The notes under the pieces: generated by a model | What the model was told of the DNA's origin: nothing | Seen by the model: the letters and a program-made list of their open reading frames with translations, nothing else | The model's database searches: none | Assembly (NCBI RefSeq): GCF_037975245.1 | Contig: NC_092561.1 | Span: forward strand, 1,154,501-1,218,500 | From: Apostichopus japonicus | Taxonomy: Eukaryota; Echinodermata; Holothuroidea; Aspidochirotida; Stichopodidae | Length of the DNA: 64,000 bases | Direction: 5' to 3' | Part shown: positions 31,150 to 59,630 of the stretch, in pieces | How the letters are laid out: each line of letters opens with the position of its first letter | Numbering within the stretch: the stretch's first letter is position 1 | Program-made: the position numbers and the translations under genes

Positions 31150-33145
31150 GGATTTACTACTGTCATGATCGCTCGTGAACTCTTGTTCATGAAGACAGGA
31201 AACTATAATTTGGACGAATTCTGCTCTGACTGGGTAGCAACGTTGATCAACGCTACTCTTTCGGATAACTTTGCCACATAAATCGGATGGGACGACGTAT
31301 TAATGTGAAGGAGAGATGACTATTATTGCGATATAACCTGACGAGTGTATTGTCCACGTTGAATCATGATGACGCTGTCACTCATTGTATTGTTTATTCG
31401 TACCTCCGGTGTCATTGTACTGGAAATTAGTAAAAGGGCGGTAGTTGGAATCATCGTATGTAAAAGGGGTTATCAATAAGTATGTTACGCCCCTTTTTGA
31501 TATATGGTCTCGAAACTTGCAGAACCCAACTAGACCACTTAGGGATTCGTCAGTGTTTCCTTCTACAACAAAAGAAATCTGATAAGAAACAAAGTCTGTG
31601 ACAATAATATCTAATTTCCCGCCTTAAAAACTAGCGTGGTATTGCTACTGTGCTTCAGGATGATCGATGTTGATTCAGTACTGTTTGGGACGAATTCAAG
31701 TTGACTGGTGCCTGGTGTCCAATCAATAGCTAATTGGTACTTGAGGTCTGCGCCGTTTAGTGATTTCAACAATATAGGAGCAGGGTCAGTCGCATTGCAC
31801 TTCTCCAGTAGGTCAACCCGAATCCCCACATCCGATGTGATTACCAATGTTGAAAGTCTTCTGGAGTTGTAGTAAACATTTTCGTCAGGAACATTTTGTG
31901 AGGGAATTTGAAAGAAGCTCTTCATACTGCTAACTTCTACATTAATGTTGGAAATATTTTGATCAGTGAAACAGATCTGCCCCATCGCGTTCTGCGAAAT
32001 CTCTCGAATCTTGATTTCCATATTTGGTTCTTGGCAAGTACGAGTGAAGAAAGTATACACACCTGTGAAAAAGAAGACGACCAAGAAATGTACAGGGTTT
32101 TAGAAAGCAACAAATAAAATATGACAACCAATCAGCTAAATATTGGAAATAAAAGATCACTTGTTACCCAAGCTTCAAAACATTTGGTCAACGTTGATGA
32201 CCTTTAACCGATCGTTCAGCAGGTTATCCAATATTATCCTCATTCTCGGTCGAGATTTTCATTCGCACGAGCTGGTCTGGTTTAAATATTGACAAGTATA
32301 AGTATGATTCCCATCTAGGTATGTATATAAGGACTATAAGGTGTGTGTTCAGTTGTGCTGTGTTTATAAACTCAAAACTGTACATGCAACATCAAAATTA
32401 CGTAGAATAGCTGCAGAAAAGTTGAGATACATGGCCAATAAATATAACGACTATAGTGAGAGTAATGGTAAACTTAGCACACCTACAACCTAGTCAGTTG
32501 AAACCATCACAAACAGCACATCATTCCTGGACGTACAGAACATATACATTCTTCACAGCTCGATACGTTTCATTTTATTCGTTTCTTCTTCATTTTAACA
32601 AGAATGTGTCTCTAAGATGAGATTCCACAAACAGTATAAATTATACCCTAAACTATATACCTTTATTTGCTTCATCGTCCGTTAACGGGCACTTCATGTT
32701 GATGTCTGCAGTCGTTGAATCCTCAGTTGATGCAAATTGAAGGACATTCTGTGTAGTGGTGATGACGTCTGAGCGGGCAGAATCGAAAACTTCTCTGGTG
32801 GAACTAATGAAGGCCCCGTTAACATTGATCCCGTCCCCTGTGGGACCCATGATGGGGTCGTTTGAAGGATCAAACATCTTTAACAACTCTGTGTATGGTA
32901 CATGAGAGAAAATAAAGTACAGATACAAGTACAGTGTAAATGCATCAAGTTAAAGATGTAATTAACACGTCCTTCAGCGGTCTGGCTTTGCAGAACCGAC
33001 TTCAGTTGTGTATCAAAGGGTTCAATTAGGTTATTTGCAACTAGATGTTTAACTACAAAACGTATAATTACCGCCAATACAGGTCAAAAGTGGCTAGATT
33101 CCCACTCTTGTTTAGGCTGATGAACTTAATCAGTGCTTCCCTCGC

Positions 33146-33286
<141 letters not shown>

Positions 33287-33716
33287 TGTCACAGATATTT
33301 ATATGCATTATAAAAATGTTCGCAAGTGGCTGCTTCCTGAAACATTTCGACAGTTTTTATCAAAGAGCCCATGAGCTATGCAGACTATTATGGTGTTCAC
33401 GAAGTGGGAGCGGGGTGGAGAGAGGGATAAGAAAAACGAGGTGTTAACTGGATCTCTTACCTGTGATGGAGACATCTTCTTCGGAATCAAAACGCGCCAT
33501 ACTTCTTGAATCGTCTTGGGTGTTGCATACTACTTTGGTGATGATGGATGTTATGCTGGCCTGTGCGTCTGAGTCACTACGTTTACGCTCATAGCAAACT
33601 GGTCCAACAGCTGAAAAATAAACCAATGTCATATACCTTCGTTAGCTATCATTATACCTACTCCTCTAGCATCGAAAAATTAACGCCATGAAAACGTCAA
33701 ATAGGTCTATCGATTT

Positions 33717-34334
33717 ATCCATCCATCCATCCATCCATCCATCCATCCATCCATCCATCCATCCATCCATCCATCCATCCATCCATCCATCCATCCATCC
33801 ATCCATCCATCCATCCATCCATCCATCCATCCATCCATCCATCCATCCATCCATCCATCCATCCATCCATCCATCCATCCATCCATCCATCCATCCATCC
33901 ATCCATCCATCCATCCATCCATCCATCCATCCATCCATCCATCCATCCATCCATCCATCCATCCATCCATCCATCCATCCATCCATCCATCCATCCATCC
34001 ATCCATCCATCCATCCATCCATCCATCCATCCATCCATCCATCCATCCATCCATCCATCCATCCATCCATCCATCCATCCATCCATCCATCCATCCATCC
34101 ATCCATCCATCCATCCATCCATCCATCCATCCATCCATCCATCCATCCATCCATCCATCCATCCATCCATCCATCCATCCATCCATCCATCCATCCATCC
34201 ATCCATCCATCCATCCATCCATCCATCCATCCATCCATCCATCCATCCATCCATCCATCCATCCATCCATCCATCCATCCATCCATCCATCCATCCATCC
34301 ATCCATCCATCCATCCATCCATCCATCCATCCAT
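33717..34334. repeat. Giant (ATCC)n microsatellite
   Basis: About 154 perfect ATCC units without a single interruption over 618 bp, then degraded units to about 34373. It lies in intron 1 of the IgGFc-like copy C. Because four is not a multiple of three, every frame stays open on both strands (Ser-Ile-His-Pro or Met-Asp-Gly-Trp repeats). These are not genes. Confidence 0.97.
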
Positions 34335-35746
34335 CAATCCATCGATCCATCCAAGCATCATTCCATCCATCAATCACGTATGTCAAAACTCGATAGAATG
34401 ACGGCTGATTTACCAAACGAATATATCCAAGATTAAATAGTATTCTGACCGTTTTGGAATATCTTCGAAAATACACGTATTTTAACGTAGTTTGTATTGG
34501 CTCTCTAGTTAAACTATAACATATCAAATCAAACCCAAAACATTTGGAACACTAAATCAATAATAATGAATACAGATGGCAACCAAATTTGTCACTTTTG
34601 TGTTTCAGAAATGGCTATAGTTAATAAATTTAAAGTTACAAACGGTGAAGTATAGTTCTCAATTTTGAGACTGCAGCATACTTTCGAATATAACAATTAC
34701 ATTGAAGATTCAACTCTATATTGTTTTGTTAGAATGGAGATAAAAAGTGGAACTAAATGAAAGAAACTTTCCGTAAAATCGTTTCTCTCAAACTTCGTCG
34801 ACGCATTCTTACTTTTCGTAGCTTTATAGAACAATGATAAAAAAATCCACCTTAAACACTACAATATGATTTTACGAATATTTGCTAGTAGGGTTTTGAA
34901 TACATATAAATAATGTTTCAGCCGCTACTCTGTGGTGAGTAGCACATCTTTCAACATCAGAACCCAGAAGGTGGCCAAACGGTACAATATTGCAATGAAT
35001 CAACAACATTAAAGAAACAGCAACTTGAACATCATCAAATTTCGCTAAAGCATTGTTGGCTCAAGCATGGAATACGATGCTCCAGCCATCAAAACATGAG
35101 AACATCGGCTGGAAAGCTGTGATAAATAGTATATAGCTATTCAATTAGTTTTAAACTTACCAAGTACTTCAATGAAGCCACTGCATATGCAAAGTATATG
35201 TAGAATACCAACCATATCAAGAACCAGCTGGCGCATTTTGTCAAAGTGATACTGTTCAAAAATATAAAGTTTAAAATATGGAACTTTCGTTATACTTTGT
35301 ACCACCGTGGCAGTCCAATCCGTTATGATGTACCACAGACCGTGACAAATTATTAATATTGTAAGCAACATGATTTAAATCGGTCATTTCGAATGACGGA
35401 AAACAAAACTATCGTCTCCTGTCACATCACAATAACTATGAAAAACCTTTCATCGTAAGAAAGAAATGCTTTTAAGGCACGCAGATAGTAAATCGATACA
35501 GAGATATAGTTAAAATAATGTTTTGCAATCCATATCGCCGAATAGATACCATCAGATGGAAATCAATTCAGCACAATGGTCACTTCAATGGTTTCATTTC
35601 AATTCAGACTTTAATTAAAAACTTTTCCATCGCTGGGGAAATTATAGTTAGTTACCGTATATTATTTTGATGCATAACGTCAATATAAGGGCTTCGAAAC
35701 AAAAATGAAAATAAATTTCCATGTCCATCATAATATACGTACATAT

Positions 35747-40307: not shown

Positions 40308-43300
40308 ATGGCTATGACTATGGCACAAAGAAGGGCGTTAGGCATGACCTTAGAGAGCCTGTCTGGGGAACTGGATGTTACCCATGTAGTTCGTTATCTC
40401 AGAAGTAAAGACATTCTTACAGAACCTGACGAGGACACCATCAACGCAAAAGGCACGGATGCAAAGAGAGTCACAGAGTTTGTCCAAATTATCAAAAAGA
40501 GAGGGAAAAGAGCGTATTCAGTTTTCAAAGAGTACTTGGAGGAATGTCAAGGATCGGGAAAACTTGCAAGAGAACTGGAAGATAATTTAAACACTTCCGA
40601 GGTACGTAAAAGTAATATAAGCTTACTTGCATCATCAAGCCAACAATATTTATTAGTTGTGTATCTGAATTATGTTAAACCGTTGGAAATATGCGAGGCA
40701 GCTTCCGATATACTTCATGCAATGTTGTCTACTAATTGGTCTTCCGGTTAAGAGGAACAAACCCATCCTGATAAACTGTACGCGATGAAACATGATGCAA
40801 TAGTAGCTAAAAATTATTGAGAAATCAAGCACATCAGTCAAAAGCAGGAGCAAAGCTAGAATACATGGTTCTTGGGAAATTGTAAACAAACTTATTGAAC
40901 AAGTAGGCGATTGCAATGCAGGAATTGATAGGGAAGTATGTTCACCCTCTTTGTACAACAATACAGACATAAATGTGACAAGTATAATTAGATAACTGCA
41001 AACACAAACCAGGCGATTCTAGACAGGAGCAGAGTTTCCCAGCAGACGTCACGTCACAGGACTGACGGAACATACATCACTGATTACATGGGTAGCACAT
41101 GTTGTTGGTGACAATGTTTAATATGACGAAATCGAAATCGAAAAATATGATTGCCATCGTCATCTCGCCGTGTTATAGGCAAAAGCTTCTAAAGAAAAAC
41201 AGAAAACCTTTCACTAGATAATAGGATTACATTAAGCATGTCTTCGTTAACTTGACATTGGTATTCTGCCAAGTCGGTGCGGCAATCGCCATTGTAAAAT
41301 CATCCAGCGGTTAGACTTCGTGAGTTTTTTTTGTATTTAAAATTCATTCCAAACTCTTTGTTTTTGTAGATACAAAGTGAAAAGGGGAAACAGATAGAAA
41401 GATGGAATACTTTTGACGAGAAATCCCCTTTTTTCAAATGTCAGCACAAGCGCATTTGTCATTATGAGGATATTCCTGGCGAGATTAATATTCTTTTAAT
41501 CGGGAAAACTGGATCTGGCAAGAGCGCCACCGGAAATACAATCATCGGGAAACCTTACTTCAGAACTAGTGGAGCAAGTGGTTCGGTAACACGAACAATA
41601 GACGTAGAGAATACCAAAGAGGCTCGATTTAACATCACAGTCATTGACACTCCTGGACTTTTTAACACCGACGAAAGTTTTGAAAATGGCATTTCGATGG
41701 CTGAAATCATGAAAAAGACGTTACGTCTCAAACAGGGAATTCACCTCTTTCTCCTGTTGATTAACTCCGTTCGATTCACAGAGGAAGACGAACAAACCAT
41801 TGATGTGTTGGAGGTATGTCTGACTTGATGTCTTGAACAAAACTATGATATTTCATGACAGGCCCATATTATTTTAAGATATATTTAATGTACCTTTCAT
41901 TGCAGCATACAGGGTTTGGTATGTTAGCAACCTATCAAGTGTCGGGTTAGCTTTTTCGTTTCATATCAGTGTGGACATAAGCACAATGGCAATTCAGTAA
42001 CTCATCACGTTTATCAACACGAACCGACACAAAACCCCATTCGAAAATCTTTCTTTAGGAAGGAATCTCGTGTCCTCCCCACACTTTCAAAATCAGTATA
42101 GGGAGGAAATAAAGACAATGGTAAGACAGTAACTCATCACATTTATCAACAGGAACCGGCACAAAACCTCATTCGAAAATCTTCAGTTAAGAAGGATTGC
42201 GTAATCTCGTGTTGGGGCAACATGAGTTCACATTGTTACTACATGTTCATTAATGCACCCAGTGGCATCAAAACACATTTACACACGACATGACTTGCAA
42301 TTACAAAATGCTGCTTTCGCTTTTGTGTTACTTCAACAGAAAGTCCTCACTGAAGATGTTTTCAGCAAGTGCGTGGTGGTTATTTCCAACGCACGCGCCA
42401 AATTTGGTGGGAAGGCAATGCAATCCTTGAAAGACACTATCAGTGGCGGATCCAGGATTTCGCCGAAGGGGGGGCCCAGATGGGAAATGCCTAATCGTCC
42501 TGGGTCAGGGGTCTAATGGGAGTGGGTGCCCCCCTCCCCTTTGGGAAATTTCACAAAATATGGAGGTCCTCGGTGCAATCTGGTGCTACTTTTCGTGAAA
42601 GTTTGGAGTAAAATTTATTTCCAATAAATCATGTATTCATGGTTTGCCGGGCATATATTTGCAATTTCGAGCAATGAGCTGAGATTTACGTCTTTGAGGA
42701 GTAAGTGGTGATGCAAACTACTTTTTACCACGCTACTCCAGGCCATTTCATCTTGGATGCCCCCTTCCAGATGGAGACTATTGATGCAGTCAGAGTGCCC
42801 CTCTCACCTTCACTTTATCAGAATGATGGTGTACTCTTTTTGCAAATTTATTTTACAAAAAATACACGTGGGATATCATTAAGGTGCAATAATTTCATGT
42901 TCTTAAAAGTAGCCTCGTGAGGTCACGCGATACTAGGGTAAGTTGCAATGAAAAACTACCATTCTTACATGGATCACTAGCCACTGGATGACTATGTTCA
43001 TGTCATGTGGGTATCTCGATCGAACAGATGACGGAATAAACCTCGAACTATCTCATGACTCCATTCGATGGTGGTCCACAGAACACATAATTAATAGAGT
43101 TTATCCCCCATAAGGAACTTTCTGAGCAGCGATACATAAATTTCTAACAGCTATATCTAGAATCAATGATTCGAGCATAATAAATAGTCATTTTGAATAC
43201 TTTTAATAATGATAGCAACAATAACAGATAAACAGAATAGCTCAAATTTAGAAAGGGCAGTCTGTATCCAGAGGAAGTTATCCAATCTCAGTCTACGGGC

Positions 43301-46300
43301 AGCAAAACCGTTAAAACATGGAAGTCATGACATCATGGTACTGATAATAGTCAACTCTGAAATGTTGTCATCATCAAAATAACCCCTTGCCATAGGGACC
43401 AAAAGAGTGTGGACTGTCAATACTCATACAAAGAAAGGCACAGCTATATTATCTCAGAATGTTCCTGAATAATGGAGGAGATTGTCAGTCTGCAAGTGGG
43501 TTGCAAAGCATCATTCGTCTGGTATTCCTCCTTGCATACATGTCAATTATAATGTCGTAGTCAAGCTTTATTGACTTGTGTACGTATAACAACACCAGAG
43601 CATTCAGCCGTTCGTTCTCCATTGTTGACCTTAGTTTGTTCTTGATTAACTTCAATGCCGAGTGGCTTCTTTCTACAGATGCAGATGACACTGGTAACAT
43701 TAGCAGGAGCCTCAAGATTTGAGTGATGTTGGGGTAGAATGATTTATTCATACGGTTCAGAGTTTCCTCTATATCCTTTGGCCTGTCTTCGATGGTACTA
43801 CGCCATTCTCTCTTCCACAGGTTGATCTCATGGGTGAAGGTATTTGGAGAGGGCATGTCTGCAGCATAGAACTGGTGAATATCGGACATCTCCTCATCAT
43901 TAAGATTGTGTATGTGTGCGGGTAGTAGGCTGAGAGATCTAGTTGCCACTTTACTGGCATGCGTGAATCTGGAGTTGAATTCTGAGATTAAGTGGTCTAG
44001 GTATGTTATGAAAATAGCTTTCCTCCAGTAATCTTCAGGAGAGTTGGCTTCGATATTGGAGCGCATGGTTTGCTGACCACATCTCCTAGGCATAGATAGT
44101 TCAACTTGAACATATTCCTTCCCCGCTAGAGTTTGTGCGTTTTGCCAGACCTCTCTGAATTTATCCTCGGATGTTGCTCTAACATCCTTAAACTCATCGA
44201 GCACAAGTTTGACTTTCTCGTGCGCTGTTATTATGTCCTGCGTCGGACCCTGTAGAAGTAGGCTCAGTGATTTTAGGTATCCTGAAAAATGAAGGTTTAC
44301 TTTGAACGCTACGATTAACTTGGGACTTGTCAAATGGATGAGCAGTCCATTAGCCTCCGTCACTGATTTGGTGTCCCAGTTGCCATCCCCAGATGAAATT
44401 GATGCCAAACAATCAATCACAGCCTCGAACATGTCATCTAGGTCTTGGAGTGCAGTATGGCGTTCCACCCAGCGTGTCTCACACAACATCTTCACCTTGC
44501 GCTTGTTTATCAAGCCTGCTCCCTGATCAGGTACTGCTGATGATTCTCGACGTTCACGGTTTATTTTGTCAATTGAGGCCTCCAGACACGTTTGCTTCTT
44601 TGGGGAATATCTAAAAAACAAGCCGACCTGTTTGACCGCGTCAAGCATTACTTGCATCTCTGGCAAATTACACGACTTTGATACAGCAAGGTTCAAGTCG
44701 TGGCTCATGCAGTAGTAGTACACAGCTTTGGGGTGCAAGTTCGAAATTCTGGAGGCACATCCACGCCTCAAACCAGCCATGTTTCCGGCACCATCATAAG
44801 ACTGCGAGCGGCATTCATTCATGCTCAGGCCGATTCCGTCAATCTTATCAAGAATCTGTTTAGCAAGGGCCAATCCTGTGATATTCTCACACTCGATAAA
44901 TTCAACAATTCGCTCAACAGGCTTGTCATTGACTAGGTAACGTAAGACTAACCCAAGCTGTTCTTTATTACTGACATCTGTTACCTCATCTGCCTGAATA
45001 CCGAACAAGGGGCCATGGTGTTGCGCGTTGATTTCTTTGATGATATGCTGCTGAATGAATTCCTTAATGCAGTTCAATAATTCATTTTGGGTGGTTTTTG
45101 AAGAATACGTAGCACTCCTCGCGCACGTTTCAAAATGTGCTTCTAGTGTTTTGTCTCCTGATTCGATACAAAGCCGAAGGAGGCCATTGAAATTTCCACT
45201 ATATCCAAATGCATCCTCCCCGGCATGACCTCGCATAGCAATACCATGACGACCACAGTATTCCACGCACCGTAGAATAGATCTGAGAACATCTCTGTTC
45301 TTTGCAATTTGTTCCATTTTACGTGCATTCAGCATCAGGTCAACACGACTGGCCTCGTTTTGAGTTGTGCGAACGAAACTCTCCATCAGTGCTGCTGAGG
45401 TTTTGTGATATTCACACACCGAATGTTTCTTCAAATCAGCTAGTGCATCCTTCCAGTTGGTATAAGATTTGTTGATGAGGAACTGGGCACGGCAACTGGT
45501 ACGATTTTCAACAGGGAACAGGACACATGCCAGACAGTAGAGACCACTTTCTTTCAACGAATAAGTGATGTATTCAAACTGTGTAAACCATTTGTGTTGG
45601 CACGACCGTTTCCTCACTCCGGATTTCTTTGCTTTATCTGGATACTCTTTACATGGGAATATATAGGATGCGGGAGGAATTCTGTCCTTAATTAGCTTGT
45701 ACTTGCTATCGTCATTAATTCTCTTTCCCACACATTGGCTAACGTCGTACATGGACGAACGGACACCAACATCTGGGTCTTCTCGATCCTCATCAGCTGT
45801 ATTACTGTCATGTTGGCTGGGTTCCATGTTGTCAGTAGGATCTGCCATTCCCTCTGCATCAGATTCTTCTAATGCTGAAGAAACCAAGAAAATACAAGAT
45901 TACACAGTGACACAGTTATTCAGACTGGATTATAAATTTTGACCCCCGTGCCAGATACTGAAATGTGTAGAGGACAATCTAATGGGTGTTGGGGGGGTTG
46001 TTCTGTGTAACTACTATGGAAAATATTTGCGTATGCGTGCGGTGACGTATTTGCATATTGTACTGCTCGTTTTGTTAGCTGGGTTGCAGCGGGCTAGTAG
46101 GGTTAGGCCAAAACACGCTAGCTAGTAGGCCTTCAGAAGAGACATAATGCATGCAACTTTTAGTCTTACTTGGTCTACTTCGTTTCGGAGGTGATTGACT
46201 ACCATCACTTTCATCGGAGGTTTGGTTTTCTCCCAAGACGCTATCTTCCTCCGAGGATAGCCCCTCCTCATTGCGGCTACCTGGTGTTGAATTAGCTGAT

Positions 46301-49300
46301 ACTGGTGAGTTGTGTTGTCTCATGGGATGGTCTTCAGCATCTCTCCTGTCAGGAGACTGTATCAAGCTGAAAACATGAGAATAAAATTATTAAAGTAAAT
46401 GTTACTGTTATTACACATCATGTTTGGATGGGTTGAATGTGTGTGTGTGTGTGGGGGGGGGGGGTTAGAGGGGGTCATATTGGATTTTAGTCAGCATAAA
46501 CTACATAAGTATAACGGTTTTTCTTGTTGATTCTATGATTTGTTCATCTCCTTCCCAACACGAAAGGGGCGGCAACACCGGACGCCGCGCCGCATGCATA
46601 TTTTTTCCCAGAGACGAATTGCGAATAAGGGCAATTCCCATTAAGAATAAAATGAGACAACACCCACTGTCCCAAAAACACTTTCTGGACCTTTTTTTGT
46701 GATTCTGACGTCAGAATATAAAAGAACATGCTTCATTCCCCCTGAGCTGATGAGTATTTTCGTCGCCCGAAACAAATTTGTGAATTCCTGAAGAACCCTT
46801 ATCCGTCATGGGGAATAAAAATATGCGCGCCGGACCGCGCCGAAACCCGCTTCAAAATGAAGTTGAAAATATGCTAGCTTTCACGGTGCCGTGCAGCGCC
46901 GACAATTCCAACAGCCAATTACAGGCACTGATTTGCTGACTCTAAAACAAATGACATAAATCTTTGTGGAAACGGTGTTGGGAAGGAATCCGGTAATATA
47001 TTGAAATAATCTGTACCGTTGCCAAGTTTAGTGCAGTGCGGCGCAGCGCCATGCCCGTAGTCAAGGAGGGGGCAGGGGGAAGGTGAGGTGGGCAGGAAGG
47101 CGGCACCCCTTGAAAAAATCTAGAAAACATAACAAAATATGCATTTCGCCCCCCTGGAAAAATCTTCGCCCCCTGGACATTTTTCACCCCCCTCCCTCGT
47201 GAACATGGTCTGGCTACGTGCCTGCGAAGCGCCTCAATGCTAGTATAAACTCAATTGGAAATATGCAGAACATATCAGGAAAGGCATGTTTGCCTTTGTA
47301 GCCTCAAAAAAGGAGTTTACCTTCTGGAAATTCCAGTTGGGGTTATCTCGAAACATGCCGTAGTTTGGTTGAGAGACTTGGCTAGATCCTTGGTGTAGGA
47401 AACAGCTGCTTCCAAAGATTCAATTTTCATGATAACAGCTCTACCACTGGGACTACTCTCTCCAGATAAATTACGAGAGTGTGAATCGAAGCACAGAAAT
47501 GTACCATTACCCTTGTAATAGAAAGCGCTGGTGTATCCTGGTGAGCTGCCAATAGTCACAAATAAATATTGGCTACGTTCCACAGCATTTGCAAGCGCCT
47601 CCGGCAAAGCATAAACCAGTGAATCGTTGTTGGATTCGGTGGCCTCAAGTGTTCCTGAGTATGGCTGGTGCTTTGTTATATCCAGACGCTCATTGTCCAC
47701 AGTGATGACATCGGGGATTTCTTCAACTAATAAATACTGGACATCCCTCTCCTCTGCTATTTGTCTATATAGTTGATCACCGCTGTAGAGTACGTGATCA
47801 ACATCCTCTGTCGTGAAACTGACATCATCGATAACACCGAGACAACGATCCACGAGAAATCGTAGAGACATGCCCACACATTGTTTTCCACCGTCCGCGA
47901 AATCACCTTGATGTGAAGAACCACTAGCAAGACAGCGTCGACCAGTCCTAAAAGTAGGAATGAAGGGAAAAAAACTGAGACACATCCACACAATGTGATT
48001 AGATACTCATCTACAACATTTTGTAGCACTTGGTTAGCTGCGAAAATACAAAATTCTGAAAATTGTGGACAGAGCATCAGAGTTAATATAAAAAAAGGGG
48101 CCAACAATTAGTATGATATTGTTGAAATTTTCCTGTTGGGAAAGGGCAGAACTGTAGCCAGAGTGGCCCTGGCAGGAGGCATAGCAAAGCCCCAGGAACT
48201 TTGTCATCCTCCCCACCCAGAGACTTTCACCCTTCTATTGTTTCGCATCTCCTAACTGTCAAATTTAATTACCGTCGGGCCTATACAGGAAGATTGAGTA
48301 GATAATGCTGAGGACCCCCAGCCTATTCTCCTCAAAGTATCATAATTGATTGAAATATAATTGTATATACCTCTTCCCCCTCTGGAATGCTTGGAAAATA
48401 TCCTGCTGCCCACGTTGTTTTCCTCTCGTTCTCTTTCCCATGCTGCTTACTATATAGGACTCAATCTGAAATGGAGATATATAATACAGTTACGAATCAG
48501 AATCAGGCAATGAAAGCATTGCATTAATGACAAGATTTGTGATATCGGCTGAGGTTTGTGGTGACTTCCTGCAGTGACCACTCAGCCTACCTAGGCCGAG
48601 AGAGCCCCAGGCTGGAGGTAGGAGCCGGGGGGCACTGGGGGCACGTGCCCCCACTTCCCCCAATACAGCAATTGCGCCCCATTGAAATGTAAAATATGCC
48701 CCTCCTATATGAATAGGCCGAATGTTTTTTTTTCGCTCCCAAACAATATTAAAATATAAATAATAATGGAATGTTTTCAGTGGCAGCGGCGGGGGGCAGA
48801 ATTTCAGGAGGGGAGGGGGAGTGGGGAAAATAACACTTAATAGGGCTCAAATTTCCACAAGTTGCCCCTGGAAAGTGGGGACAGCTGGGGTGAGCAAGAC
48901 CATTTGTTCTGTGGGGGGGAGTTGCCCCTCATGCCCCCCCCCCCATAGCGCCGACACTGATTATTCTGTATTGTTGGTACGACGAGTGGGAATTGTGTAA
49001 TGGGAAAGTGCCCCTCTGATGTTGTGCTGCCCACACCCCCCACTTTTTGGAAGCCTCCTGCCCCCCCCCCCGACCCCAGGCTACGCCAACATTTACATGC
49101 ATCAAAATCCCTCCCTGTGCTAAATCCCAGGCTAGGCTGGTCCTTGCACGGTTGCACCATTCCCTCGTGTATGGTTGGCTGCCCGAACCTCCAACGGAGG
49201 TTATTGCCAAAAGGTAGGCCTACAGTGCCTATGCGACCAGACGGCCACAAATTTCCGACTAGTCCCATATTCCCAAAAAGCGAAATTTTCGCACTAAACT

Positions 49301-50817
49301 ATTGTGCTAAATCGATATATTCTTGCTGTATTATTATTCTTGCTAAGTTCGAGAGTGACACAACAGGGGCGTAGCCACTGATCGCAAGTCCCCCTTCCCC
49401 CCAAAAAATCGCTTGCCTTAAGCATTAATAGCCTAGCATATGGAGCCTGGAACCTCCAGGCCCCCGAGATGATTGCCAGTCCCCCTCACCCCCCAAAAAA
49501 ATCTATCCTGGCTACGCCCCTGCCAGACAATCAAAATTGTGTTCCAAGTTCCCACAGTACAGAAGAGTGTGTAGTAATTTCATAACATTAGGCCACACAC
49601 TGTAGATATGGTACCGCAGTGATGGTATTGTTAGGGAAAACAGGCTATCATGTGTGGATAGCCTAGGCTTAGATTGAGTCTGTCGTGCGATCGTACCACA
49701 CTCGTTTTCTCACATTTTTTAAACTAATAATTTCATACACACACTGTGCGTGCTTATATGTAGCATGTAGCATGTATTGCTTTCGTCATATACTCACGTC
49801 TAGTTGCGAGTCGTTTCCCTCTCTGCTAGCTTCGTGCTTACTGGATCCGGACTGCCGCGAACGTACGTTCAAAGTGCATCGTGCTCAGTGCTTCCACACT
49901 CAAAATTTGTTTTTCCCGAAATGGAATCCAAATTTCCCGAATCGGCTCGGTATTTCCTGAAATTTCCAAAGTGCCGTACGGCTCACCCTACCCAACACCT
50001 ACATTTATTTACAAATAATTTTCACACTTCGAGACTCCATATGATTTTTTTTCTTTTAATTTTTTCATCACGCATGGGGCCCTTTCCCTCGAACGCGGTA
50101 AAAAAAAAAAAAAAAAAAAAAAATCAGGATTTTCAAAAAGGGGGGGCCCGGGCCCCCCGGGCCCCCCCCCTGGATCCGCCCCTGACTATCGCAGAAGTGA
50201 AAGAACACGGAGGAAAATTTGTAAACCTGCTGGAGCGAGTTCAAGATAGAATAGTAGCTGTCGAAAACTGCTTTGACGACAATTCTACGAAAGAAATCCA
50301 ACGCCAGAAACTTCTTTGTTGTCTTGCCCAAGTCATATCTGATAACAAGGGATCAACATACAATTCTTTTGAATGGACAAATAGCAAATTGAGACACTTT
50401 AAGTGCGGACGACAAAAGAAATTCATCGTTGTGATCAAAGAATTGTACAAAATGAGAGAGCTACTTAATCATTATTTTGAAGAGGATTTTCTTCCCAGTT
50501 CATCGGTAGGCGATATGGACAATTTATTACAAATTTCCAGAAACAATGTAAAACGCATAATGGCAAAATCCGGTGTAAAGGGGATTCCGAACATCACTAA
50601 AGAAGATGTTCTTGAGCACATTGAATACTTCATCCAGGACAAACAACAACTTATTGCAGAGATGAAATGCTCGAAAGTTGAAGTGCTCGAGCAACGACGA
50701 AAAGAATGCCACAAAGTAAAAGGACAGATTAATAATGAGACAAAGACTGAACGTTTGCAAAGTAATAAAGTTTTGCCTGGTGTACCATATAAGCACGGTA
50801 ATACAAGCAACAGTTAG
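40308..50817 (+). CDS. CARD-AIG1 (GIMAP-like) GTPase gene A, interrupted by a hAT element
   Basis: Exon 1, 40308-40601, 98 codons: a CARD-like death fold (LRSKDILTEPD..., IIKKRGKRAYSVFKEYL). Exon 2, 41370-41813, 148 codons: AIG1 GTPase with P-loop GKTGSGKS, conserved box and G3 motif DTPGLF. Exon 3 starts at 42340 (KVLTEDVFSKCVVVISNARAKFGG), is cut at 42440 by the transposon, and resumes at 50190 after the target duplication. The two parts give 101+628 = 729 nt, an exact codon multiple, and end at a stop at 50815-50817. Without the element the protein would be about 488 residues: CARD, GTPase and a short helical tail, with no Hint domain. All introns are phase 0. The homologous gene B follows on the same strand. 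As assembled, the allele would read into the transposon after DTI and should be non-functional unless the element is spliced out. AIG1/GIMAP proteins are immune- and survival-related GTPases, and CARDs mediate homotypic signalling. Confidence 0.85.
41994..42215. repeat. Intronic tandem duplication (~132-bp period, two copies)
   Basis: AGTAACTCATCAC, TTTATCAACA and ATTCGAAAATCTT blocks occur at about 41996 and again at 42128 with about 85 percent identity. They lie in intron 2 of gene A. Confidence 0.7.
43485..48441 (-). CDS. hAT transposase fused to a C76-like cysteine peptidase domain
   Basis: Four minus-strand exons: 48441-48371, 47947-47321, 46366-46170 and 45874-43485. All are GT-AG with consistent phases (2, 2, 1) and give 3285 nt, i.e. 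1094 residues, with no stop. N-terminus: MGKRTRGKQRGQQDIFQAF, basic. Residues ~30-230: cysteine peptidase-like domain with GKQCVGMSL (Cys47), SGDQLY and CFDSHSRN (Asp178-x-His180), in the arrangement of the C76 (herpesvirus tegument deubiquitinase-like) family, which also occurs in some eukaryotic mobile-element proteins. Residues 235-340: acidic, Ser-rich linker. Then a TTF/zinc-finger-like Cys/His region (CLACVLFP...), a DUF4371-type RNase-H-like catalytic core with DEVTD (Asp ~594), SYDGAGNM (Asp ~659), CMSHDLNL and ETRWVERH, and a C-terminal hAT dimerisation domain with SSASVERSHS (Glu ~1033). It looks intact, so recent activity is plausible. Confidence 0.88.
49364..49522. mobile_element. 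Small MITE-like element nested in the hAT element
   Basis: 159 bp bounded by CAGGGGCGTAGCCA and TGGCTACGCCCCTG, a perfect 14-bp inverted repeat. No open frame. The flanking 8-mers TGACACAA and CCAGACAA match at only five of eight positions, so the target duplication is degraded or the ends are slightly different. Confidence 0.7.
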
Positions 50818-53800
50818 CAAACAAAATACCTCCAGGTAGTGAAAACTACCAATTATTAAAGAGTGATATTATTGAATTTAAACATTTTGCTCAATGAGGT
50901 AGTTTATAGATGATGGCGTAATATCAAAATAAGCTACTATAGGTTCTAGTCTTGACTTATCGATGTTCTTCCTGTTCCTTCGTGATTTAATTTTTGCAAA
51001 ATAAGAATCCGAAGAAACTTTCACTTTCCAGATTACGAAATACACTTTGGCTGCTGGAATGTTTAATAGGACTTGACTCGACGTTGTTTTCGCAAATGAA
51101 GTTATGATACATTAGATATTTTTATTTTTGGTTCCTTGCTATAGCAAAAGAACATATGCAGTCATCGTGGCGTGGGCGTGCGTGTGTGTGTGTGTAACAC
51201 TTGCTTGGGTACACTGTAACTCGACAACTAAAGGTTGAACCACACTCAAACTTGGATCCACCATAGTGAGAAGGTGTGCCCTATTGACTGTAAAGAACAC
51301 CAAAGGTCAGTTAAGGTCCAAAAACCCAAATAATAAACAAAGCAATAACTCCCAATGACAGGGTACGAATTGTTTGTTATTTTGGAACTAGTTGTAAATG
51401 GGGGTAGGGATCGTTTTCAAACATAACAAGCGTGTGATCCAAGGTCAACAATGGTCAATTAGGGGTCAAAAACTAGTTTTTTTCCTATAACTTGAGAACA
51501 CAATGTCCGTCAAGGTTGGAAGTTACGCTATTGTAAGTCCATTAGTCGACCCGAATCTATGTGACTTTTGACCTTAGGTTGACCTATGGTGACCTGTATT
51601 AGGTTCATCGGTTATTGGAATTTTGTGGCCATATTCAGACCTCAAATGGTCTTCCGATCAAAATTGTCCATGGGTTGACCCCTGTGCGACCTTCGGGTGC
51701 AAAGTTATCAGAGGTTAAGGTTTTTTTTATAAGTATGCTCATTTTAGGAGATACAGGGCAGAGAAAAATGTTTGTCAATATTTTTTCTATATAATAGAGC
51801 TCTGTGTGCTCTATAGACGACCAAACTCCCGCTTCGATCGGACACCTGGTTCTTAAGTTATGAGGTGCCAATTAAAGGTTCGATTTGATACCTTGTTAGC
51901 ATTAACATTGTGTATGTACATTGGAGTGAATAACAATTTTAGGATGGAGTGCACATCATTGAGGGGAGCATTTTTTATAAAAACCGTCATGTTATCCAAG
52001 ATCATTCAAGGTCGCTTTTGGGCAAAACATATGCCCACTTATGTTAATTTTTGCATCAACTTCCAATGACGAAGTCTAAATGGCTGATATATTGGGACCA
52101 GTTGTGAATGAAGTAGATGCACGTTTTGCTAAATAACTGTTATGTAATCCAAGGTCACCAAAGGTCAATTATGGGTCAAAAATTCAATCTCCAAACTGAT
52201 CAAAGTTGTCCATGGTTGACCCCTGTGAGACCTTCATGCACAAAGTAATCAGAGGTCAAGGTTTGGTTTGGTTTTGAGGGGTGGACTTCTGTTGACCTCA
52301 AATGACCTTGGAATAGCGCCTCCAGATTTCATTTTTTTAAGTTGAATATTTGAATTTTTGTGGCCATATTTTAATTGTCAATCGGTTGACTCCTGTGCAA
52401 CCAAAGTTATAAGGTACAGTTAGGGTGATTCTGCAAGTTCTTATCAAGAAATCTAACAAAAGTCAACAGATTATCAAATGGACCAATCATTGATTTGTGA
52501 TATTTATGGCAATTTGTGTGTGTACATTAAACCCGTAAATAACAATTTTAGGATAGTCCGTATAAGCAAGGAACCATAGTGCCATTGGGCGTTTGTTTGT
52601 TAATGTATGTATCAATGTATGTATCAAGTTAAATATGACCTGTGTACAGTGCTGTCCTATCACCGCCAACATATGTAACATATTTCTCCAGGCATAGCAT
52701 GTGTTAATAACAATTTCATTCTATTTTTGTAAATATTTTGGGTAGGAAACAACTATTCATTAGAATTGACGGCAGTGGGTACATCGTATTAATTGTTACA
52801 GGGTCGGTCATCAATGTTATGGAATCCATTCATGCAGGGTAAGTTGGGTAAGCTTTTGTGCGATGTCAGTGATATTGAGGAAAATGTTTATCGGATGGAG
52901 ACAGATTTCACGATTTGATCACATATGATAGCTATGGTCACAAATGGGTGTTTTTTTTTTTTTTTTTACTATCTGTTTGGCTGGTTCATTACCGTAACAA
53001 TAGAATACTAAAAATATTTATATATAAGATGTTTTGTGGCTCACTGTTAATGTCTTTTTATTCACAGTAGGCCTAAATTGCTGTCCCCCACCCCCTTTCT
53101 TATATTTGAACGATTGACGAGAAGGAAAATTCAGTTGAGTCTTATGAATTTGTGAGATGATATAATGAAAGAATATGTAGGTAATTGATCATTACGTACA
53201 AATTGTTATGAAGATAGTTCCCATATTTATTGCAACCCTGGGAATGTGTCTTCTCGTCTGTTTCCAGGCTCAAATATAAAGTCAGAGTTAACAAGTTTTT
53301 TTTTTCTAATGACTTTTTGAATCTCGAACAATGAGATTTTAGTATGCAGGTGTTCATGTCTATACGGCACAAATTGTAGGCATTGCTTGGAAAATTGTTG
53401 AAAATTATGCATTTATGATTGGCTTTTTGGAGCAATCTACTAATCGATATTAACATTTTTGGAGTCGAGTTGTTGTTCAACCATTCAACAGTTAGCGTTT
53501 AAATATGTCCCATCACAGTACTCTTACCTGTATGATACGCAGAGTCTAAATCTGGATAAGCTTTGGAATCAGAAGGGTCTAGTAATAATTATTTCATTGC
53601 CGACGATTTAATGTCTTCATGTGATTCAACTTACTTTTCCATATATTGAGCTTCATAATTTCTTTCATAGTAAATACTCACATTTGTTTGAGAGGAGAGA
53701 ATAAATTAATAGAAAATCAACTGAAACTTACCCGTTTTATTAAGAGTGATTGACTGCTTGTGTAATATCTAGGATTTCGTAGCCTCAACATTGTTCAACA

Positions 53801-54610
53801 CACATGCCAAGACCTGCTAAGCATACCCTTTACTCGAAGCTACCGCGAGCCAAGTTGGTTAACACGTCAATACTCTATCGGTCGGACACACGTCACTTCC
53901 TGTGAAATTGCATACGTCACGTGACTGGAGTGAAAACACTGTACAGTGTGGAATGACTTACGTACATGAATGTATGCGAATGGCTCAACAAGTTTACAAG
54001 ACGATCGGGACTTTCTTTCATTCAATATTCAAACTTTGGGTATATGGTTTGATATTAGTCCAACATTTACACCACGCGCCACCTAATCGTTGAATTCTCG
54101 ATATTCGAACAAAGCAACTTGGGAAATCGAAAAATGTTCTCACTATTTCTGGCGTTTTTATGCCTAGAAAGTCTATGTGTAGATCATTTGTCCATTTTAA
54201 GCGGTCAGAAAGGGAAGACTATAGTTATAGTTATAAAATATCTATATATATATATATATAAATATAAATGAGAAATGTGGAGGGGCGGAAGTATCATGCC
54301 GCCCCCCCCCCCCCCGCTTCGCAAGTCAGAAAACCCCTTTTTCATTTCCAAATGAGAAAAAAATCTCATTTGGAGCACCAAATTGCATCTAAGGCCAGGT
54401 GAAAATGCAAAATTATATACAAAATGGATTGAGTGGGTTGAAGTATGCTATATTGCACCAAATTGCATCTGAGGCCACCTGGAAATGCAAAAAAAAATCC
54501 AAAGGGGAGGGGTGTCCCCCTTCCCTTTGGATTTTTTTTAAGACCCCTCTCCCAGGCCGGCCATCAGTCTTCAGCCCCCCCCCTACTCAAAAGTTCCTTC
54601 CTACGCCACT

Positions 54611-54709
<99 letters not shown>

Positions 54710-54837
54710 CAGTCAAAGTCGATTGATATATGTTGCCTACCTCGCACCTTTAAGTTGTTTGAAAGAAGTGTTTCCAGTCAACATGCAACTTCTATTTGTC
54801 TTTCTTTCGAAAAGGTCTCTCTGAGTATCATTTGAAG
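50818..54837. other. Intergenic between the two CARD-GTPase genes, no gene recognised
   Basis: From about 51220 to 52440 it is rich in GGTCAA/TGACCT words (AAGGTCA, GGTTGACC) in both orientations, in a pattern of loosely repeated sentences rather than a clean tandem array. Similar words recur near 56925-56950 in an intron of gene B. At 54290-54610 there is transposon-like debris with C runs and a hairpin (ATCCAAAGGGGAGGG with its near complement) ending CCTACGCCACTG, followed by the (AT)n tract. No supported exon. Confidence 0.4.
54614..54706. repeat. (AT)n microsatellite
   Basis: Perfect AT dinucleotides just upstream of exon 1 of CARD-GTPase gene B. Confidence 0.95.
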
Positions 54838-57800
54838 ATGGCTATGACTAAATTACAAAGGGAGACCTTAGCTAAGACATCGGAGGTGCTAACTGAAGAC
54901 CTAGATGTGAGTCCGGCAATAATTCACTTAATAAGCAAAGGGATCCTTAACGAAAATGACCGGGAAAACATCATCGCCAAAGTTACAGAGAGAGAAAAAG
55001 TCATGGAATTTCTGAAAATCATCAAAAAGAGGGGAACGAAAGCTTACTCTACATTTTATGAGTACTTGAAAAACTGTCGAGGATCAGAACATCTGGCCGA
55101 AGAACTGGACAAAAAGTTAAAAGAGGTAATTGAATTTGTAGCTAGTGTAATTTGGCATTGTCAAATTGATGTATTATGCTAACCTTGACGTTTTAAATGG
55201 GATGGTTAACTAAAATCTCTTTTTGCTGCATTGTCTCGCTTGTGCATGCTATTTACAGGATTGAATATTCCATTCAAACTAAGCAATAAAATGCGCAAGG
55301 TACAACACTGCCGAATAACAAATTTATTGAATATGTAGCCTCCAGTTTCGGATACGAGACTCTTTGTTATAATTTTTACATGCATATTAATATTCTTGTG
55401 GCAGGCAATGTCAGAATTTTATCAAGGAGAAAAAAAATTATTACAGTGCTCTGAAAACCCCATCTCAATATCTTGCCCCTAACTCGAGATACGGTTGATT
55501 GAATGTAACCTACAGTTTGTTGACTATAGCTAAACCATATTCCTGCCAGGAAATCCCAGTTGGTGGTCTGTGATCTCTTCAGGACAAATGTTCTTCAAAG
55601 GCTAATATAATCTTGTTGATTTATCCTTGGAAATTGATACATTTGTAATGCTTCCTTTGCTCTCATTGTTCTCTTTAGAACTTCATCAAATGCAATTTTT
55701 TTTTAGAAATATTGTTTTCTTCTGTGGATTAATGATTGGAATATAAAGAAACCAAAAAACAACTTCATCTGAACTGCCCTTAGATGACATTCACGCATTC
55801 TGCTGTTGTCAGATGCATTTACAAAATATCACCAAACAAAATGCTCAAAGAGAATTTGTTTTTGACCTAAACATGCAGAAAATCTTCAACAGTGTTGCTA
55901 ATCAATATATTTTTTAAATTCCCCTTGAGACATCACTAATGAGGAGGCATGCTGCAGACACATAGTAACATGGTAGGAGAAAAAAAAATATCCCCTACAA
56001 GTATTAAACAGTTTAGGAAACCCAGGGATGTACTTAAACAGTCGTGGATGATTATATAGATCTCCAATCATGTATTTTCTCCTGACCTTTTATTGCAGCT
56101 GGAAACAGAAGCTACGAAACAGATAGATAGATGGAAAGGATTTGAAGATAAATTCCATTACTTTAAGTGTACCCATGAAACCATTTCCTCTTATCAGGGT
56201 ATCCCTAAAAAGATTAACATACTTTTGATTGGTAAAACTGGATCCGGCAAGAGCGCCACCGGAAACACAATAACTGGAAGTTATTGTTTCAAAGCACTTG
56301 GTAGCACCGAGTCGGTAACTAAAACAATAGAAATTAAGGCTACCACAGAGGAAAGGATTAACATCACAGTCATTGACACCCCTGGACTCTTTGACACCGC
56401 CAAGTGTAATGAAAACGAGACTATTCAAAACGAAGACTTGATGCTTGAAATAGCAAAAACTATGATAAGTTTTAATACAGGTATCCACCTGTTCCTGTTG
56501 GTATGTAGCTCTACGGTAAGATTCACAAAGGAAGAACAGGAAACCATTAAAGTGATAGAGGTAAGTAAAAAAGTCTTTCTCGACCAGAAGAAGGGATTAA
56601 AAGGTAGAATCGTTTACATACTCCAGTACCGATGTATTTAAATGCTTGTTGGTCTGTTAACAAACAGATGATGGGATAATAAACTCCCAATATCTGTCCA
56701 TAAATTGGACCATTTGATTTCAATCCCGCATCTTTGAACTCCTTCAGTAGCCACAACAATTTCATAATCAGGGTGATGGTGGAAACGGCGGCGAAACTTT
56801 GAACCAAACAAAGGGATTAGGAGGGCAGGGTGGGGATTCCATGCAAGGAAATTGATGGACAGTATGCTTTGTATATAGATAAAACATATTGAAGTGATAA
56901 AAGCCTGTTTTTGGTGGTCAAATGGGTTTCGAGGTCAACAGAGGTCAAATTTAAAGAAAAATAACACCTTTTCTAAAACGGAAATTTGGATTTCCAACTT
57001 ATTTTAACATTTCAACCCTGTGGCAACTCAGATCACATGCGACGTCCATCAAAAAACTAATAAGCTTCTTGTAATCATTGTGATATAAATGTGAGATATT
57101 TTCAAGCTTCACTTCTTAAGACAGGCCTATCGTTTTTACAATGTTTTTATGATTTCACATCTACTGACATCAGATTTGCTTCCATGTCCCCTAATAATAA
57201 TGTATCTTTACTTAAATTAATATGCCTTCAAACATACTTCATTTCTCATATTTGTTTAAATTTCGAACCTTTCAGAAAATTCTAGGCAAAGATATCTACA
57301 GCAATTGCGTAGTGATTCTGACAAACGCACGTGCTCAATTCGGTGGTAACAAGATGGAACCATTGAAAGATTACGTTAAAAGAGAAATCGAAACTGGAGG
57401 GAAGTTTGCCGAACTTCTTGCTCAAGTTAAAGGAAATATAATAGCTGTCGAAAATTGCTTTGACGACGATTTCTTAGAAAAAAGACATCGCGAGAAATTT
57501 CTTTGTTTTCTTGCTCAAGTAATAGAAGCTAACAAAGGGTCTGTGTATTCCAACATATTATTTGAAGCTGCTCACAAGAGAGTAGAACAGCAAGAGATAG
57601 AGCGAAAGAAGAGAGTTACGAAAGGAAATGAAATGACAGCAATGAAGAGCTTGCTACGTAATTTCCTCATTAAGAAATATCTCAACACTTTATCAGAGCA
57701 GCAGCTCGATAGCATATACCTAGTCGTATCGAAAGATATAGAACACATAATGCATCAATCAGGGGTGTTGACACTTGAGTCAATCACGAAAGACGATGTA

Positions 57801-59630
57801 CAGGAATATGTGAGTTGTTTCATTCAAGAGAACATAATTTTAATATCGAAATTAAAGGAAATGAAACTTCAAGAATCAAATCAACGAAAAGAGCTCGAGA
57901 AGATGGAGGCGATTAGTCAAATGCAGCTCCTGATCTTGTCATTCGCTGGTAATTATTTGAGAAATCAATCAAGGGAGGATCTAGAAATACTAATGAAAAA
58001 CAGAGAAGTGCCTAGGGATGCAATAGATCATTTTGAAAACGGTTTAAAAACATCCAAAGTTAATGTTACAACAGAAGACATCCAGGAATATGTCATGAAA
58101 CTTTTTTTTGAAATTCCATCGGAGATCCAACGGTACTTAGATGACAAAAACTTAGAACGCGAGTTGGAAAACAAGTTAAAACAAGTCGAAAGAGCCAACG
58201 CAATCCAGGTTGCAATGAATAAGCTGCGAGAAGAACTTCCTGATGCTTTAGAACGTTATACAGACGATGAATTAAGACAATTAATCAGTGAGTTGAAATC
58301 TAAGGAGATTTCTGGTGAATCTAACTGGAAATCATTGGTTCGTGAGCTTCTGAGGGATACTGTTCCTTTTGACGAATTTTTACAATTGTGTTCCGAGCAA
58401 AGTAGTAACAGTCTTCAGGGTATTTTGGAAACTTTTCTCGAAAAACGAGAAAAAACACAGGAGGCAACAGAAAAGCAAGAACAGGAACATTTACTAAATA
58501 CTTCATTTAGTCAAATCTCAATTGCAATCAAAGGAAACCTGAAGCCGTTTCTTACAAGTAAAACTGTAAGTGATTTAGAAAAGTTAGAAGTGCAGATAAA
58601 GCAAGGCAAGGTTCCTGCAGAAATTATCACTCAAGTATCGAACAATCTATCAACAGAACAGAAAGAATTGTTAGGTGAAGATGCAATAGAGAGAGAAATA
58701 GTAAAGCAACTTACGGAGCAAAGTCAGCTTATAGAGGAATGTAGGGAAAGTGCAAAAAAGTGTTTTGCGGGATCAACAAAGGTGAGCATCAAATTGAGAG
58801 GTAACGCTAAAATATCTAATGTGAAAGTAGGTGACGAAATTCTCGTCTACGACGAGAATGGCCATTTATTCTATGATAAGGTTTATCTTTTTTCTCATGC
58901 AATAGAAGATGAAAGTATTACATTCATCCGGTTGAAAACATCTTCTGGTAAAGAACTGTTTATTTCTCCGGGACATTTGTTGCCTGCTGGAAGCCTTTGC
59001 AGGAACGTCTCCGCAACAGACATATCGATTGGTGACATCATATTTACATTGCAGAACAGTGAAATGACTTCCGACACCGTCACCTCGATAACATATGAAC
59101 TATGTCGAGGAGCGTATTGCCCGATGACAATGCATGGGACTATTGTTGTCAATGACGTAGCAGCATCTTGTTATACAACGTTCTTCCCAGCTCGTCTTGC
59201 ACACGTTTTGCTCTCTCCCAACAGATTCCTCTTCGGTTATTTACCTTCGCGTCTCTTTCATGGGTTATTTCCTTATGATGCTGAGGAAGGAATGCCTATC
59301 CTGCTCCTAAGATGTCGTAACATGATCACTACATGGCGTTCTCTTGTAAGAATGTATAACCCTTGGGCATATCAAAGGAAAAAGTTTGGAATCATAAAGA
59401 AACATATAGATCATCGGAAAGACTTTTTTACAAGCTTGGGGACACGGCCAACCACAAACACTTGCTTTTTAATTCCAATAGGCCTAATTATTATATTCCT
59501 GGGAAGTGCCCAGTTCAACACACCACTCAGCAGTCTTGCAATCTATTTCTACGCAAATAGTTACATCAATTTTGTCAATATTTTCATGCTAAGTTTTTTT
59601 TCTTCAAAATATCGAATATTTGGTTCTTGA
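54838..59630 (+). CDS. CARD-AIG1 GTPase-helical-Hint (Hog-type) fusion protein, gene B
   Basis: Exons 54838-55125 (96 codons), 56099-56560 (154) and 57276-59630 (785 with stop), all phase 0 with GT-AG borders, give 1034 residues. The start is the ATG of MAMTKLQRE, matching MAMTMAQRR of gene A. Residues 1-96: CARD (ISKGILNEND, IIKKRGTKAYSTFYEYL). Residues ~134-340: AIG1/GIMAP GTPase with GKTGSGKS (141-148) and DTPGLFDT (189-196). The usual G4 position has LTNARAQFGG. Residues ~340-745: charged helical region with about four divergent repeats. Residues 746-~900: Hint domain beginning CFAGSTKV (Cys746), with VGDEILVYD, SPGHLL (His817) and VVNDVAASCYT (Cys882). The C-terminal tail is hydrophobic, with a possible membrane segment around 980-997. 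In Hedgehog proteins Hint cleaves before its Cys and passes the acyl group to a nucleophile. By inference, this protein could self-cleave and release the CARD-GTPase part. The architecture is intact, and its function is unknown. Confidence 0.9.
58761..59240 (+). other. Hog/Hint autoprocessing domain region of gene B
   Basis: Starts at the TGT codon of Cys746 (58761-58763). The order of blocks follows Hedgehog C-terminal domains: CF-x-G-S/T start, KVGDEILVYDENG, FIRLKTSSGKELFISPGHLL, GDIIFT, MHGTIVVNDVAASCYTTF, then AHVLLSPNRF. The Thr-x-x-His motif of Hedgehog appears as Ser-x-x-His. The residue before the nucleophilic Cys is Lys instead of the Gly of Hedgehogs. A CF start and an SCY block favour Hog over bacterial inteins. 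There is no C-extein junction (His-Asn followed by Cys/Ser/Thr), so a splicing intein is unlikely. Confidence 0.88.

Follow-up and report, generated by a model that had tools for sequence, protein, structure and literature searches.

A sea cucumber gene joining CARD, AIG1 and Hedgehog-type Hint domains, with a histidine at the place of the Hedgehog general base

Gene structure and domain content

The window considered here, that is, the whole stretch of DNA that was analysed, comprises 64,000 nucleotides of contig NC_092561.1 of the sea cucumber Apostichopus japonicus (assembly GCF_037975245.1, positions 1,154,501 to 1,218,500 of the forward strand). Between positions 54838 and 59630 of the window lies a gene whose product joins a CARD, an AIG1/GIMAP domain and a Hedgehog-type Hint domain. 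A first-pass annotation had described it as three in-phase exons encoding these domains, and had interpreted the product as an immune switch in which autoprocessing frees the CARD-GTPase from a membrane-associated C-terminus, or tags it. The gene and its homologues are known from genomic gene predictions, NCBI models included.

Splicing of exons 54838–55125, 56099–56560 and 57276–59630 gives an open reading frame (ORF) of 1034 residues, in which Cys746 opens the Hint domain. The junctions are in phase 0 throughout, with GT/AG splice sites. The features of the gene are the following.

54838–55125, + strand: exon 1, with the CARD (residues 9–91) at 54862–55110 (Pfam, PDB CARDs)
56099–56560, + strand: exon 2, residues 97–250, with the AIG1 start at residue 136 (56216), the P-loop GKTGSGKS and DTPG
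57276–59630, + strand: exon 3, residues 251–1034 and stop, with the AIG1 end (57590), stalk, Hint and tail in a single open frame
57591–58760, + strand: helical stalk, residues 356–745 (P0006 model, profile comparison)
58761–59231, + strand: Hint, residues 746–902, the Pfam match being 743–902 (Pfam, alignment)
58761–58763, + strand: Cys746, equivalent of the Hedgehog nucleophile Cys258, preceded by Lys745 (alignment)
58896–58898, + strand: His791, in the position of Asp303 in Hedgehog (aligned to 1at0 and 6tyy)
58965–58976, + strand: Ser814-Pro-Gly-His817, equivalent of the Hedgehog TXXH motif, Thr326 and His329 (alignment)
59169–59171, + strand: Cys882, equivalent of Hedgehog Cys400, in an SCYA motif (alignment)
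59190–59240, + strand: stretch resembling helix 1 of the sterol recognition region (SRR), residues 889–905 (alignment to fly and human Hedgehog; helix in low-confidence models)
59346–59627, + strand: tail specific to this gene, residues 941–1034, hydrophobic peak at about 975–1000 (hydropathy)

The Pfam matches are all well above their cut-offs: 49.7 bits (E 3.7e-13, cut-off 23.9) for the CARD, 138.4 bits (E 2.8e-40, cut-off 27) for AIG1 at residues 136–355, and 107.4 bits (E 9.9e-31, cut-off 29.7) for the Hint domain, for which the annotation had proposed a profile search as a check. Among PDB sequences, the protein matches GIMAP7 (5.3e-21) and fly Hedgehog (3.2e-13), with human Hedgehog and further GIMAPs also present, and its CARD region matches the CARDs of CED-3, RAIDD and Apaf-1, each at about 1e-5. 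Beside its profile match, the CARD has the six-helix death fold, as seen when the structure model of the homologue P0006 is compared with the Apaf-1 CARD. The AIG1 domain combines its profile match with the P-loop and DTPG motifs, and the Hint domain has the residues of a Hog domain, namely the Cys, the T/S-x-x-H motif and the Cys at position 400.

The three-domain fusion is thus real, and the three exons stand as first described, with the splicing, the Pfam and PDB matches and the NCBI model all in agreement. Since the gene is known from genomic predictions alone, one can ask whether two genes have been wrongly joined. We find this hardly credible, as the end of AIG1, the stalk and the Hint domain share one uninterrupted exon of 784 codons, most of the homologues scanned carry all three domains, and the combination is in print for amphioxus (see below).

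Between AIG1 and Hint, the annotation had seen some 400 residues of helical repeats. The helical part of this description agrees with the P0006 model, in which long helices alternate with groups of short ones over residues 354–770, most blocks having a predicted local distance difference test score (pLDDT) of 75–90. The repeats fared less well: by profile comparison, the first two stalk segments (376–466 and 467–563) match each other at 83.8%, and the other five of the six segment pairs stay below 8%, with no mutual recognition.

Homologues and published relatives

A homology search with residues 725–1034 returned 11 proteins among 1910 candidates. One of these, P0001, is the NCBI model of the present gene. 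Six of the other ten that were scanned (P0002, P0003, P0004, P0006, P0007 and P0008) contain CARD, AIG1 and Hint, so that the same architecture, which the annotation had suggested looking for elsewhere, is indeed found again; four of the six (P0003, P0004, P0007 and P0008) have two AIG1 stretches. P0005 is without a CARD, and P0009 and P0010 start within AIG1. In P0011, the place of the CARD is taken by residues 25–86 with a weak match (20.9 bits, cut-off 35.9) to a death effector domain, so the death fold may be swappable. The Hint domain of P0002 is 98% identical to the present one, and the two most distant Hints are 46–47% identical to it. P0001, P0003, P0006, P0007 and P0008 are probably on one chromosome, their contigs having the same length of 21,652,200, and P0002, P0004 and P0005, which lie on other contigs, may be alleles or copies from other assemblies.

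Two further searches yielded nothing beyond the proteins of the first: a profile search gave 3 matches with 7999 candidates scored, a set probably filled by coiled-coil words, and a second region search gave 5 matches among 544. Both are uninformative on other phyla, the published amphioxus and coral members also not having been returned.

We now compare the gene with what is in print. The annotation had known of no described protein with this architecture, and this does not hold. A CARD+AIG1+HINT class was published for amphioxus in 2025 and called "unique to amphioxus among animals"; apart from a few multicellular fungi, no other organisms were said to have the combination. The same paper reports CARD, AIG1 and HINT domains in the GIMAP architectures that recur most often in lancelets (PMC12373286). 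The present protein has the three domains in the same order, with N-terminal CARD and C-terminal Hint as in the published description, but comes from another phylum. AIG1 with a C-terminal Hint has also been reported for the coral Acropora millepora (PMC3723955) and the snail Biomphalaria glabrata (PMC7053062), where, in the excerpts at hand, the proteins with a Hint are not said to carry a CARD. In Glomus mosseae, a fungus, the protein GmGIN1 likewise combines an AIG1-like GTPase with a Hog domain and has no signal peptide (PMC2362128); it differs in being fungal, and a CARD is not mentioned in the available text. The matches listed for the open-licence PMC literature included no study of a sea-cucumber GIMAP-Hint protein.

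The architecture is therefore not new, and what this gene does is to extend the full CARD+AIG1+HINT set to echinoderms. Two published statements are thereby revised. One confines architectures with CARD and HINT to amphioxus among animals (PMC12373286); the other, which takes a single sea urchin to represent the echinoderms, denies AIG1 genes to that phylum (PMC3723955, repeated in PMC7053062).

The Hint active site

The active site was examined in an alignment of 11 sequences, namely the window protein and P0002–P0011. Cys746, His791, Ser814, His817 and Cys882 are invariant in all 11. Of the 137 Hint columns, 45 are invariant, and the probability of drawing five invariant ones at random is 0.003. 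It is supported by these sequences that the Hint domain retains the residues for the first step of the reaction, the N-S acyl shift (Cys746, Ser814, His817 and Cys882).

In the alignment with 1at0 and 6tyy, His791 falls on Asp303 of Hedgehog, the general base that activates cholesterol. The residue is His in all 11 sequences, and the Hedgehog-specific Asp is not present in any of them. Against the family profile, the chain of the D303H crystal scores 69.2 bits vs 63.7 for the wild type, one extra residue in the D303H chain contributing to the difference. As judged from the alignment, this exchange of Asp303 for His in all 11 sequences is what is new here, along with the extension to echinoderms. 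The intact active-site residues thus equip the domain for the thioester step, and His791 offers a plausible base for the step that follows.

Engineered Hedgehog variants provide a reference. According to a review (PMC9163320), D303H Hedgehog keeps its structure, pKa and cholesterolysis, and its activity with coprostanol is increased by more than 200-fold. The chemistry of the invariant His is therefore directly testable, since the exact swap has been characterised in the fly protein (PMC9163320).

Proposed mechanism and alternatives

The reading that we propose is that a cytosolic, immune-type CARD-GIMAP-Hint precursor would cleave itself at Cys746, whereby the CARD-GTPase would be freed or tagged with a lipid. 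We give it an even chance. In this mechanism, the CARD and the AIG1 NTPase would constitute the signalling part, followed by the helical stalk, and the Hint domain with its SRR-like helix would form the C-terminus. The Hint would generate a thioester at Lys745-Cys746 by the N-S acyl shift, and His791 would then aid a nucleophile in attacking it. If the SRR-like helix delivers a sterol from the membrane, this could be the nucleophile; otherwise water or a thiol of the cell would serve. In either case the CARD-GTPase and the Hint would be separated, and a sterol might or might not be left on the C-terminus of the former. The cleavage, its timing, the nucleophile, the cytosolic location and the gating of CARD or caspase signalling are what we infer. 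A role of self-cleavage in AIG1-Hint proteins has been proposed from the domain before, and the excerpts available report no test of it (PMC3723955, PMC7053062, PMC12373286, PMC2362128). If correct, self-cleavage, an irreversible event, would be coupled to death-fold signalling through the Hint domain of a cytosolic GTPase of immune type. The immune-switch interpretation of the annotation thus survives in part: it is backed by the presence of all three domains in a single gene and frame and by the first-step residues of the Hint, while the novelty of the architecture is gone and the membrane-associated C-terminus is weakened.

With Hedgehog, the protein shares the Hint fold, the Cys/His/Cys active site and the first SRR helix, the latter, as far as the sequence alignment allows, being represented by the stretch around residues 889–905, where His893, Pro898 and Arg900 are invariant in all 11 sequences. 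Unlike Hedgehog, it gives no Pfam match to a Hedge domain over its 1034 residues and has no hydrophobic N-terminus, no hydrophobic window being found by hydropathy ahead of residue 975. Protein-splicing inteins have a C-terminal His-Asn and a +1 nucleophile; here, the His-Asn is not present, the sequence at the Hint's end being VAASCYT.

A number of further departures weigh against the proposed self-cleavage and tagging. The residue preceding the catalytic Cys is variable (K, K, E, G, I, T, E, K, K, K and E across the 11 sequences, Lys in the present one), and Gly is found there in only one of them (P0004), while the N-terminal part of Hedgehog ends in Gly (PMC9163320). Ser814 replaces Thr326. 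The HWY motif of the second SRR helix, as described in the excerpts of PMC7242414 and PMC9163320, is not found after SC(Y/F) in any of the 11, and in human SHH the loss of either SRR helix is reported to abolish the cell-associated product (PMC7242414). The structure model of the Hint domain is poor (pLDDT 46.8). An altered residue at position 303 could, moreover, signal release by thiols rather than transfer to a sterol, because in fly Hedgehog the variants D303A, N, R and E are cleaved more efficiently by dithiothreitol (DTT), and D303A allows the cleavage by DTT but not full cholesterol transfer (PMC9163320).

The AIG1 domain adds a further point to these. It has the P-loop and DTPG in common with human GIMAPs, from which the protein differs by the added CARD and Hint and by its G4 stretch. 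In GTPases, an acidic G4 residue specifies guanine. The GIMAPs in the PDB have RKDD (GIMAP4) and RKEE (GIMAP7) at this place, whereas the corresponding stretch, TNARAQF in the present protein, is without an acidic residue in all 10 aligned rows. The GTP specificity of the AIG1 domain is therefore in doubt.

One option that follows from several of these points is a Hint restricted to cutting, whether through hydrolysis or with cytosolic thiols, which would remove the C-terminal part and attach nothing; this is a narrower form of the proposed mechanism. The absence of a conserved Gly at −1 and of the HWY motif is in line with this, as is the report that a Hint without the SRR cleaves yet does not use cholesterol (PMC4695875). 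The conserved stretch resembling SRR helix 1, and the ability of a His at position 303 to act as the base in fly Hedgehog, point the other way, and we hold such cutting without ligation to be possible, if on the doubtful side.

The Hint domain could also be inactive in cleavage and have the role of a folded cap, or of a docking domain. The variable −1 residue would be compatible with an inert domain. Nevertheless, the Cys, the two His, the Ser and the second Cys are invariant even though the most distant Hints share less than half of their residues with the present one, which makes inactivity rather unlikely in our view.

The more specific version of the proposed self-cleavage, in which a natural His-based Hog domain would esterify a cytosolic CARD-GTPase with a non-cholesterol sterol, a bent delta-7 or delta-9(11) one, we consider decidedly unlikely. 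The free sterols of holothuroids are mainly delta-7 and delta-9(11) sterols, L-shaped relative to cholesterol, and the synthesis of cholesterol may have been lost in A. japonicus, which fits the very low cholesterol of sea cucumbers (both from PMC6627624). These bent sterols and the His base, whose engineered version prefers sterols with a bent A-ring, fit together, but the link is hypothetical, and the His at position 303 also being present in P0010 and P0011 is set against it. If the idea were true, Hedgehog would not be the only user of sterol ligation, which would also serve immunity, and the engineered D303H exchange would have a natural counterpart.

Finally, the hydrophobic tail could anchor the Hint in the membrane, cleavage then freeing the CARD-GTPase from it. 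The tail has a single strong hydrophobic stretch at residues 975–1000, with a peak of 2.06 on the Kyte-Doolittle (KD) scale in a 19-residue window, a value matched by 24 of 1000 dinucleotide shuffles and thus somewhat above what composition gives. However, none of P0002–P0011 has a 19-residue window at KD 1.6, P0002 being uninformative in this respect as its model ends before the position of the tail, and the 3' flank of the gene, read as protein with the stops dropped, reaches KD 1.6 in 61 of 106 windows. The tail is thus confined to this gene, of which P0001 is the NCBI model, and we infer that it arose by loss of the family's stop codon. The membrane-associated C-terminus of the annotation consequently holds as a hydrophobic stretch in this gene; as a feature of the family, a membrane tail was rejected. 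An anchoring role is very unlikely.

The NCBI model and the upstream copy

P0001, the NCBI model from A. japonicus, has 1322 residues. It ends in the identical 1034 residues, and the 288 additional ones at its N-terminus derive from a tandem copy lying 12 to 15 kb upstream, which is interrupted as follows.

40308–42440, + strand: upstream copy, first part, with CARD exon 40308–40601, AIG1 exon 41370–41813 and exon 3 from 42340
42441–50184, no strand assigned: hAT-type transposon within exon 3 of the upstream copy, inverted ends 42440–42456 and 50169–50185
50185–50817, + strand: remainder of exon 3 of the upstream copy to its stop (50817), without Hint

A CARD-AIG1 gene without Hint is thus the neighbour of the one with Hint. 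The inverted ends of the transposon are 17 nucleotides long and 94% complementary, and a transposase-like ORF (43485–45899, minus strand) has DUF4371 and hAT dimerisation domains in Pfam. No clear target-site duplication was found at the transposon. A second ORF in it (47317–48006, minus strand) matches Herpes_teg_N with 35.3 bits (cut-off 25).

If the NCBI model is the real protein, an extra CARD and a cut-off half of AIG1 would stand in front of the 1034 residues. The additional exons come from the copy that the transposon has broken, and, as we read the sequence, the join from 42442 to 54815 that this requires uses a GT inside the first bases of the transposon. The ATG at 54838 is in a Kozak-like context. 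The longer form is therefore unlikely, and the 1034-residue form starting at 54838 is favoured.

Other features of the window

Elsewhere in the window, an ORF at 2782–4017 contains an IgGFc_binding domain (77 bits, Pfam). The ORF at 31611–32099 on the minus strand resembles it by eye and has no Pfam match. A long tandem array at 33666–34551, with WMDG or IHPS repeats, is open in several frames on both strands. At 757–830, ARAGORN predicts a tRNA-Tyr with the unusual anticodon ATA, perhaps a pseudogene or a false match.

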